This document shows positions 48,241-51,625 of a stretch of 64,000 bases of DNA, one piece after another. Origin of the DNA: Natronococcus occultus SP4. GTDB taxonomy: Archaea > Halobacteriota > Halobacteria > Halobacteriales > Natrialbaceae. The stretch lies in the NCBI RefSeq assembly GCF_000328685.1, contig NC_019974.1:62001-126000 (forward strand), given 5' to 3'. Position 1 is the stretch's first letter, and every line of letters begins with the position of its first letter. Made by a program: the position numbers and the translations under genes. Under the pieces are notes generated by a model, which saw nothing but the letters and a program-made list of their open reading frames with translations, did no database searches and was not told the origin of the DNA.

Positions 48241-49926
48241 ATGAACACGACCGAGCGGTACAAACAGCAGAAACATCCGCTGGATGTCGTCGACGACGTC
48301 TACGAGTACGCCGCAGACGGACTGACGTTCGAGGAAATCGAGGATCGTGGCGGCGACGGCGAGTGGGAGCGTCTGAAGTGGGCCGGAATGTACGCCCAGA
48401 AGCAGGAGGGCTACTTCATGATCCGGACCAAGGTCCCGGGTGGCCACCTCACGCCCGAGCAGGCCGAGGTGATCGGCGAGTGTGCCACCGACTACGCCGT
48501 CGCGCCCGAGGCGTACGGCGGCACGGAGCAGAACGAGCTCTGGGGCGACGCCTACGTCGACATCACGACCCGCCAGGACATCCAGAAACACTGGATCCGG
48601 GTCGAGGACGTTCCCGAGATGTGGGACCGGTACGACGAGGTCGGCTTGACGACGATCCAGGGCTGTGGGGACTCCGCCCGGAACGTCCTGGGCTGTCCGG
48701 CCGCGGGGATCAGCGACCACGAGTGTTTCGACGCCCAACCGGTCGTCGACGCCGTCTCGGACTTTTTCACTGAGAACCGCGAGTACGCGAACCTCCCGCG
48801 GAAGTTCAAGCTCACGATCACGGGCTGTGCTCACGACTGCGCGCAGTCCCAGATCAACGATGTCGGGCTCGTACCCGCCAAGAAGGAACTGGGCGGCCAG
48901 CAGCTCTACGGCTTCCACGCCCGCGTCGGCGGGGGTCTCTCGGACGGTCCACGGATGGCCTCGGAGCTCGACGTCTTCGTTCGCCCCGAGGACGCCGTCG
49001 AGTTCTGTCGCGCGATCGCACAGACGTTCAAGGAGCTGGGCGACCGGACGAATCGGGGCGTCTGCCGGATGCGGTATCTCGTCGAACAGCTGGGGGCCGA
49101 AACGTTCGAGGAGGCGGTCCGGGACCGCTGTACGGTCGACTTGCCCGATGGCGGCCAGAGCCTCACCGTCGGCTATCAGGGCGACCACGTCGGCGTCCAC
49201 GACCAGAAACAGGACGGTCTCAAGTACGTCGGCTTCAACGTGATCGCGGGTCGGATGGGCGGCGACGAGTTCGCCGCGGCCGCCCGCGCCGCGCGGGAGT
49301 ATGGCACCGAGGACGCCTCGGTGCGGCTCGCGACCGACCAGAACTTCCTGATTACCCACGTTCCCGAAGAGCACGTCGAGGACCTGCTGGCCGAGCCGTT
49401 CGCCCGGGAGTACCAGCCCGATCCCGGTCCGTTCGCGCGGGGTGCGGTCGGCTGTACGGGTAACGAGTTCTGCAACTACGCGATCATCGAGACGAAAAAG
49501 CGGACCAAGCGCTGGGCCCGTCGGCTCGACGAGCGCATCGACGTCCCCGACGATATCGAGGCGATCCGAATGCATATGTCGGGCTGTTCCGCGTCCTGTG
49601 CCCAGCCACAGATCGCCGACATCGGATTCCGCGGGGAGACGGTCAAGATCGACGACGAGGACGGGTCCGATATCGTCGAGGGGATGGACTTCGGCCTCGG
49701 CGGGTCGCTGGGATCGGACAACGAGTTCCTCGACTGGGTCGAGAGCGCGGTTCCGGCCCACGCCGTGATTCCGGCGCTCGAGGAACTGTTCGACGCCTAC
49801 GCGGCCGACCGCGAGGACGGCGAGCGGTTCTACGAGTGGTGTCGCCGCGTCGACAACGATCGCCTGCGGACGGTCATGCAGGGTGCCGAGGCGCCGGTTG
49901 CCGGAGGTGTTGCCCATGGGGACTGA
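48241..49926 (+). CDS. nirA: siroheme ferredoxin-type nitrite (or sulfite) reductase
   Basis: 561 residues. It contains the paired sulfite/nitrite-reductase halves. The siroheme-[4Fe-4S] ligands are CTGNEFC at about 405-411 and CSASC at about 448-452 (Cx5C-Cx3C). In the first half there are GCGDSARNVLGCP and TGCAHDCAQSQINDVGL. It reduces nitrite to ammonia (assimilatory) or sulfite to sulfide with six electrons. Assignment to nitrite rests on haloarchaeal family resemblance (MNT-start, KQQKHPLDVVDDVYEYA). The ATG at 48241 was chosen over one at 48151. Its end overlaps the next gene by 11 bp. Confidence 0.92.
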   Translation: MNTTERYKQQKHPLDVVDDVYEYAADGLTFEEIEDRGGDGEWERLKWAGMYAQKQEGYFMIRTKVPGGHLTPEQAEVIGECATDYAVAPEAYGGTEQNELWGDAYVDITTRQDIQKHWIRVEDVPEMWDRYDEVGLTTIQGCGDSARNVLGCPAAGISDHECFDAQPVVDAVSDFFTENREYANLPRKFKLTITGCAHDCAQSQINDVGLVPAKKELGGQQLYGFHARVGGGLSDGPRMASELDVFVRPEDAVEFCRAIAQTFKELGDRTNRGVCRMRYLVEQLGAETFEEAVRDRCTVDLPDGGQSLTVGYQGDHVGVHDQKQDGLKYVGFNVIAGRMGGDEFAAAARAAREYGTEDASVRLATDQNFLITHVPEEHVEDLLAEPFAREYQPDPGPFARGAVGCTGNEFCNYAIIETKKRTKRWARRLDERIDVPDDIEAIRMHMSGCSASCAQPQIADIGFRGETVKIDDEDGSDIVEGMDFGLGGSLGSDNEFLDWVESAVPAHAVIPALEELFDAYAADREDGERFYEWCRRVDNDRLRTVMQGAEAPVAGGVAHGD

Positions 49927-51625
49927 GGGTGAGGACGAACGGAGTGAGTCCTCGGAAATGCGAGCGGGAGCGGCGGGGACCGAACAAAGTGAGGGCCCCG
50001 ATGACGCGAGCCGCGAGAGGCCCGACGAAGCGAACGCTGACACCACGAACCGCGACGGTCGCGTCTTCCCCGGTGTTCCGGAGTCAGCGGACGACGACGA
50101 AGCCGTCATCGTCCCCGAGACAAGCGGCGCCGCGCCGCGCTCCCGAGAGGGGCTCGACCACGCCCGGGACGGCGCGATCGAGACCGCCGCGGGCGAGGGC
50201 TGTGGGCCCGACGCCTGTACGTGCGGCGAGAGGACCGCAACCGACGCCGACGATCGGTCCGTCGCGACCGACGGAGCGGGGGTCTCCAACGTCGACGAGA
50301 CGGGGAGTCTCGGCGATCTCGAGTTCACCGAGCCCGCCGAGGACGTCAGTCAGAACGTCGACGACGGCGAGCCGGACGTCCGCGTCGGCGTCCCCGAGGA
50401 CGTCGAGCTCGACACCCCGACGTACTCCATTCGCTCGGAGATGAACGACATCGAGACGCCCGACGAGAAGACCTGGTTCATGGAGCTCGACGAGGCGGTC
50501 ATCGACGAGGGACGGTGCATCCAGTGTGGCACCTGCGTCGCCGCCTGCCCCTCGGACTCGATCGGCGTCGGCGACGACGACCTGCCCGAACTCGTCAAAA
50601 TGTGTACGGGCTGTTCGCTGTGCTGGGACTTCTGTCCCCGTGGCGGGCTTCGGTACGAACGCCAGTGGGTGGTTACGGGCGGCGAGGACAACGTCAAAGG
50701 TGCCGGCGACCCGATCACGGAGTTCTCCGCGAAGGTCGAGGACGACTGGACCGACGCGGCCCAGGACGGCGGCGTCGTTACCGGGATGCTCGCATCGCTG
50801 CTTGAGGCCGGCGAGATCGACGGCGCCCTGATCGCGACCGAGAGCGAGGAGGAAGCCTGGAAGGCCGAGAGCTTCCTCGCGACCACCGAGGAGGAACTGA
50901 TCGAGAACGCCGGTACCGTCTACAACCAGACGCTCGCGCTCGGCAACCTCGACCTGAAACAGTGGGAGCACAAGCTTCCCGACGAGAAGGACTGGGACGA
51001 GTTGAGCCTCGCCCTGGTCGGCACGCCCTGCGAGATCGAGGGCATCCGCGCCCTGCAGGACTTCGACTGGGACTACCAGGGCCACGACGAGGGGATCGGC
51101 GCCGTCGAGTACACGATCGCGCTGATGTGTACGAAAAACTTTAACTACTACAGCCTCATGGGCGAACAGCTCGAGGACCAGCGGGGGATCTCTCCCGACG
51201 AGATCGGCAAGATGGACGTCCTCCACGGGAAGCTGATGGTCTACGACCACGACGGCGAGATGATCTTAGAGGAGGACATCGAGAACTTCCACGACGCCGC
51301 ACTCAAGGGCTGTGACGAGTGTGCGGACTTCACCGGATTCTGTGCCGACGTCACCGTCGGCTCGGTGGGCTCCTCCGACGAGTACTCGAGTGTCATCCTC
51401 CGGACCGAGCAGGGTGTGCGAGCCTGGGAACACACCGAGCCGAAGCTCGACTACCACGACTTAGAGGACAAGTCGGCGGTCGGCAAGCTCCAGGGCTGGG
51501 ACAAAAAGAAGGCCTTCGAGAGCCTCGAGCGCCCCTTCGACCCCGACGCGCCACGCTTTATCGACTACACGGACCACGCCGAGACCTACGGGACGGCGAC
51601 GAACCCCCACGACGAGGCTCACTGA
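49916..51625 (+). CDS. FrhB/F420-dehydrogenase beta-type Fe-S flavoprotein fused to a ferredoxin domain
   Basis: 569 residues. Residues 1-180 are acidic and probably disordered; the DNA there holds two short palindromes. Two [4Fe-4S] ferredoxin motifs follow at about 201-240 (CIQCGTCVAACP, then CTGCSLCWDFCP). The rest is an F420-hydrogenase beta (FrhB) N and C unit with GGVVTGMLASLLEAGEIDGA, VGTPCEIEGIRALQ and CDECADFTGFCADVTVGSVG. FrhB-type proteins bind FAD and oxidise reduced F420. The ATG at 49916 has a strong GGAGG site nearby inside nirA and overlaps its end by 11 bp, so they are translated together. It should supply NirA with electrons. Confidence 0.9.
   Translation: MGTEGEDERSESSEMRAGAAGTEQSEGPDDASRERPDEANADTTNRDGRVFPGVPESADDDEAVIVPETSGAAPRSREGLDHARDGAIETAAGEGCGPDACTCGERTATDADDRSVATDGAGVSNVDETGSLGDLEFTEPAEDVSQNVDDGEPDVRVGVPEDVELDTPTYSIRSEMNDIETPDEKTWFMELDEAVIDEGRCIQCGTCVAACPSDSIGVGDDDLPELVKMCTGCSLCWDFCPRGGLRYERQWVVTGGEDNVKGAGDPITEFSAKVEDDWTDAAQDGGVVTGMLASLLEAGEIDGALIATESEEEAWKAESFLATTEEELIENAGTVYNQTLALGNLDLKQWEHKLPDEKDWDELSLALVGTPCEIEGIRALQDFDWDYQGHDEGIGAVEYTIALMCTKNFNYYSLMGEQLEDQRGISPDEIGKMDVLHGKLMVYDHDGEMILEEDIENFHDAALKGCDECADFTGFCADVTVGSVGSSDEYSSVILRTEQGVRAWEHTEPKLDYHDLEDKSAVGKLQGWDKKKAFESLERPFDPDAPRFIDYTDHAETYGTATNPHDEAH
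49931..49953. repeat. short palindrome with GAACGGAGTGA core
   Basis: GAGGAC-gaacggagtga-GTCCTC is a 6-bp perfect stem. A second one with core GAACAAAGTGA follows at 49975-49999 (6 of 7 pairs). Both lie in the disordered N-terminal coding region of the FrhB-like gene. Confidence 0.6.

Follow-up and report, generated by a model that had tools for sequence, protein, structure and literature searches.

In the methanogen enzyme Fsr, an FrhB unit and two ferredoxin clusters feed a siroheme center within a single chain (PDB 7np8 and 7npa). Susanti and Mukhopadhyay (2012) described the same modules as separate haloarchaeal subunits linked by genomic context, an aSir-type alpha and an Fsr-N-type beta, and proposed this pair, named "aFsr," as a putative F420H2-dependent sulfite reductase (PMC3448663). 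Heryakusuma et al. (2022) still call aFsr putative (PMC9295563), and we found no biochemical test of it in the literature searched, which includes few subscription journals. In FpoF/FqoF, the F420H2 input subunit of membrane complexes, the FrhB unit is likewise accompanied by two CX2CX2CX3CP motifs at the N terminus, and a siroheme fold with a doubled repeat is found in NasD, the ferredoxin-dependent assimilatory nitrite reductase of Haloferax mediterranei. According to a 2021 review, it is enigmatic how important F420 is to haloarchaea, for which a single F420-dependent reaction has been reported (PMC8305020).

We compared these systems with a gene pair from Natronococcus occultus SP4, located in a 64,000-nucleotide stretch of contig NC_019974.1 (positions 62,001 to 126,000), referred to here as the window. 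The pair combines an aSir-type siroheme subunit with a linked FrhB subunit that carries two N-terminal [4Fe-4S] motifs, in a haloarchaeal host, as described for aFsr; we found no functional difference between the two. The window pair is a further member of the predicted aFsr kind, with its probable main substrate revised from nitrite to sulfite. The 2012 proposal is the same pairing, reached independently, and the idea is not new; what is new here is the conserved gene overlap, the revision of the substrate, a paralogous rhodanese pair, and a copy in H. mediterranei.

Both genes lie on the plus strand of the window. The first (48241 to 49926) encodes the predicted aFsr-alpha, a 561-amino-acid siroheme/[4Fe-4S] reductase of the assimilatory (aSir/NirA) fold, assigned from Pfam domains, PDB matches, and invariant cysteines. 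The second (49916 to 51625, ending with the stop) encodes the predicted aFsr-beta, a 569-amino-acid FrhB/FpoF-type F420H2 dehydrogenase subunit, assigned from Pfam domains, a PDB sequence match, and a fold match. The ATG of beta lies inside the alpha reading frame, giving an 11-bp overlap (49916 to 49926), and a ribosome-binding site for beta, GGAGGTG (49903 to 49909), lies within alpha, 6 bases 5' of this ATG. An earlier note on this DNA had described the overlap, the internal ribosome site, and a second gene that joins two [4Fe-4S] motifs to an FrhB unit; the coordinates, the sequence, and the Pfam domains, respectively, bear out all three descriptions.

Alpha contains two copies each of the NIR_SIR_ferr and NIR_SIR domains and, by Pfam, no Fer4 domain. 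This two-repeat aSir type lacks the ferredoxin domain that is inserted in the Dsr-type siroheme half of Fsr, and its closest solved structures are plant nitrite reductase (NiR) and M. tuberculosis NirA. In a column check, the predicted [4Fe-4S]-siroheme ligands Cys405, Cys411, Cys449, and Cys453 are invariant. A comparison of four haloarchaeal siroheme families placed Arg111, Arg147, Lys188, and Lys190 (48571 to 48810) at the oxyanion site, a sulfite-type R, R, K, K set present without exception in the 17 type A proteins checked. The sulfite site of A. fulgidus DsrA is likewise R, R, Lys-x-Lys (Arg98, Arg170, Lys211, and Lys213; PMC9295563). By alignment, tobacco nitrite reductase carries Asn226 at the position of alpha Lys190. 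Replacement of this Asn by Lys shifts the tobacco enzyme toward sulfite; many siroheme sulfite reductases reduce nitrite as well.

The N. occultus genome encodes four siroheme reductases, types A to D. Type A is the window enzyme (PRKFK), and type B, on replicon C3, is a rhodanese fusion that also reads PRKFK; types C (PRKWK) and D (L087, PRKFN) are stand-alone proteins. At position 190, type D alone has Asn, and the other three types have Lys. Judged by sequence, relatives of type D lie in a nasA-nasB-nasC-nasD-like cluster (L114) and near nasA-like and transporter genes (L117); such a nas cluster arrangement has been described for H. mediterranei (PMC2483277). Type D, which is equated with NasD by gene neighborhood and not by the NasD sequence, stands alone and has Lys-x-Asn, whereas the window alpha has Lys-x-Lys and a beta partner, and it shows neither the Asn at the tobacco Asn226 position nor linkage to nasA, nasB, and nasC. 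Most simply read, type D would reduce nitrite and type A would reduce sulfite. These residues point to sulfite, not nitrite, as the main substrate of the window enzyme, a call that we limit to the main substrate because of the broad activity of many sulfite reductases. The name nirA, which the earlier note had given to alpha, is not borne out, and nitrite as its main substrate is unsupported and probably incorrect, since the site is R, R, K, K and a Lys-x-Asn paralogue with nas-linked relatives is the better candidate; we rank nitrite lower in view of Lys190 and the separate type D gene. Against the sulfite reading, Lys-x-Lys marks specificity but does not prove it, and the common ATP sulfurylase, PF01747, is absent from the N. 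occultus genome. This family is present in only 3 of 145 haloarchaeal genomes, and a genomic link to sulfate activation through it was dropped on account of this rarity and of that absence; the genome holds one CysH-like gene, which scores under the family cut-offs.

Beta is composed of Fer4 (residues 194 to 241), FrhB_FdhB_N (271 to 341), and FrhB_FdhB_C (365 to 512) domains. Its two CX2CX2CX3CP [4Fe-4S] motifs (Cys201 to Cys211 and Cys230 to Cys240; 50516 to 50635) are complete by Pfam and alignment, whereas motif B of Fsr lacks one Cys (PMC9295563), and the eight motif cysteines are invariant in 45 type 1 and type 2 beta proteins. A QDGG loop at residues 283 to 286 (50762 to 50773) aligns to the 24-QDGG loop that surrounds the FAD pyrophosphate in FrhB (PMC3930138). 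Cys372, Cys405, Cys466, and Cys469 (51029 to 51322), invariant among the relatives aligned, correspond to Cys104, Cys134, Cys192, and Cys195, the cluster ligands of FrhB (PMC3591093). Both the FAD loop and the cluster cysteines are thus kept in the alignment. The Ser209/Val210 loop of FrhB is also kept; FrhB Lys75, next to the FAD loop, is Val in beta, and conservation of the IGKGK turn is partial. In addition, the acidic and otherwise variable N-terminal extension of beta has a C-x4-C-x-C motif (Cys96, Cys101, and Cys103; 50201 to 50224), a possible extra metal site, of which the C-x3-5-C-x-C form occurs in 58 of 63 relatives scored; H. mediterranei has CGCG repeats in this region. A C-terminal extension (51452 to 51622) is conserved among type 1 relatives and may serve as a docking element for alpha.

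The best PDB sequence match of beta is the N-terminal half of the F420-dependent sulfite reductase 7np8 (E value of 4e-39), followed by an F420-reducing CODH component (8riu) and FrhB. Foldseek placed 8riu_B, 7np8, and 4ci0 first and plant HCAR (5dqr) at weaker scores; the AlphaFold model searched is mediocre (mean pLDDT of 62.9, below 50 in the ferredoxin part), and its use was confined to fold matching. In a beta tree, the haloarchaeal proteins form their own clade (100/100), separate from FpoF/FqoF, which also serve another partner; the deeper part of the tree, which bears on the grouping of beta with FpoF/FqoF and FGltS(I)-alpha described for aFsr (PMC3448663), carries flagged long branches. 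The N. occultus genome also contains cofD and an npdG-type NADPH:F420 reductase gene. F420H2 is a likely electron donor on these comparisons, and beta likely binds F420, a grade that we do not raise because of the Val at Lys75 and the altered IGKGK turn.

When genome contigs were scanned with the beta protein as the query, 77 loci came back; the relatives are Halobacteria, the closest being Natronococcus. With loci cut at a contig end left out, only one (L051) is without a siroheme gene. Among the 60 haloarchaeal loci in which both ORFs could be scored, alpha and beta overlap by 11 bp in 39 and by 8 bp in 19 (58/60 together), and we take the overlap as nonrandom because of these frequencies; the ribosome site of beta is identical or similar in most of these relatives. 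The pair occurs across a class-wide sample of 145 haloarchaeal genomes with 58 beta loci, of which 57 have alpha directly upstream (56 by coordinates, on the same strand, and one [L107, genome G002] by sequence), and all 56 listed type A and type B alpha loci in this sample are paired with beta. The two FrhB-family genes of N. occultus, the only ones in its genome, each lie directly downstream of a siroheme reductase. A check for FrhB-like genes lying mostly away from the siroheme gene was therefore negative (57/58 adjacent), and the earlier note's picture of two separate, translationally coupled modules in the reverse of the Fsr order agrees with the overlap and with near-exclusive pairing; Fsr, by comparison, is one chain, and the window holds two overlapping ORFs.

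Clustering of neighboring genes recovered FtsY-like and prefoldin-like ORFs as recurrent upstream neighbors of the pair, with no recurrent nas genes and no further metabolic partner. In H. mediterranei ATCC 33500, the pair is carried on plasmid pHME505 as E6P09_RS15580 and E6P09_RS15575, with an 11-bp overlap in the gene table (L152:4756-8176; NZ_CP039140.1), and alpha is annotated "ferredoxin--nitrite reductase," a database name that could be masking a sulfite reductase that draws on another electron donor. Halopiger xanaduensis plasmid pHALXA01 carries, near the end of the record, an FrhB-like gene that the listed gene table omits (L154:5001-6143; NC_015658.1:435163-436305).

We consider it probable, from the sequence evidence, that the pair forms one two-subunit F420H2-dependent sulfite reductase of the assimilatory type, the predicted aFsr. 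In such a complex, the FAD of the beta FrhB unit would take up a hydride from F420H2 and release the electron pair as single electrons. Within beta, these would pass the FrhB cluster (Cys372/405/466/469) and then the two ferredoxin-type clusters (Cys201 to Cys240) before reaching the [4Fe-4S]-siroheme center of alpha (Cys405/411/449/453). At this center, Arg111, Arg147, Lys188, and Lys190 would hold sulfite, which would take up six electrons to give sulfide. Since the ferredoxin domain inserted in Fsr is missing from alpha, that of beta would probably dock on alpha itself in place of soluble ferredoxin, at the site that soluble ferredoxin uses in other siroheme reductases. The gene overlap would keep the two subunits in step.

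The pair might instead be an F420H2-dependent nitrite reductase, like FNiR of ANME-2 archaea, and we give this a small but real chance: such an enzyme exists in ANME-2c (PMC9295563), the H. mediterranei alpha bears a nitrite reductase name, and the best NCBIfam model of alpha is a nitrite reductase, although its score of 387 bits is far below the cut-off of 594. The frequent reduction of nitrite by siroheme sulfite reductases also speaks for it. Set against these points are the invariant Lys190, replaced by Asn in both nas-linked type D and tobacco NiR, the presence of a type D gene in the same genome, the lack of nas genes among the recurrent neighbors, and the fusion of the sister alpha family to rhodanese.

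A different question is whether beta is dedicated to alpha. It could be a general input module for F420H2 (or ferredoxin) that reduces ferredoxin or serves several partners, with alpha fed mainly by soluble ferredoxin, as NasD of H. mediterranei is ferredoxin-dependent (PMC2483277). Near-exclusive pairing and the conserved 8- or 11-bp overlap fit a fixed complex better, making this reading unlikely, and it draws its support from the betas at L108 and L051, which have no siroheme gene within the region examined (L108:5800-7083 and L051:5980-7395). The L108 copy is 72% identical to beta and adjoins genes resembling a flavoprotein dehydrogenase and an SDR, a setting that hints at further partners for beta. 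We regard it as very improbable that beta has stopped binding F420 and turned to a different donor, on the model of the HCAR branch within the FrhB fold. Plant HCAR is a relative of this fold that does not use F420, which counts against the F420 reading, as do the Val at Lys75 and the changed IGKGK turn; yet F420 enzymes are the closest relatives of beta by both sequence and fold, the Ser209/Val210 loop, QDGG loop, and cluster cysteines are kept, and the genome contains F420 genes.

As an aFsr, the pair would correspond to methanogen Fsr in split form, with an assimilatory-type siroheme protein as its base, and would bear on how electron-input modules joined siroheme enzymes. It offers a concrete, testable candidate user of F420H2 in haloarchaea, and the pHME505 copy makes the aFsr prediction directly testable because H. 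mediterranei is genetically tractable.

The second FrhB-family gene of N. occultus belongs to a paralogous pair. On the minus strand of replicon C3, a 799-amino-acid double-rhodanese siroheme reductase is followed directly by a 412-amino-acid FrhB-type protein (L088:5960-9598; G000:C3), and a rhodanese-siroheme gene with an FrhB-type partner occurs in 18 other sampled loci. Rhodanese-NirA fusions of Halobacteria have been noted earlier, in passages that make no mention of an FrhB-type partner (PMC11237513). In our trees, these type B fusions and the type A alphas are sister families (100/100), and their beta partners are likewise sisters (100/100); therefore, alpha and beta appear to have diverged together. 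Fusion of the paralogous alpha to rhodanese domains suggests sulfur chemistry. We tentatively raise the possibility, which we regard as less likely than its opposite, that haloarchaea have two paralogous F420H2-driven sulfite reductases, the second being a rhodanese-sulfite reductase with an FrhB-type subunit that would convert thiosulfate or sulfane sulfur to sulfite and then to sulfide. If true, this would assign F420 a definite function in halophilic archaea. Halomontanus rarus also has a rhodanese pair, P1Y19_RS22080 and P1Y19_RS22085, with the two genes annotated as touching, and there the pair adjoins a radical-SAM/SPASM cluster with a candidate RiPP precursor of the Htur_1727 family (L153:7520-10396).
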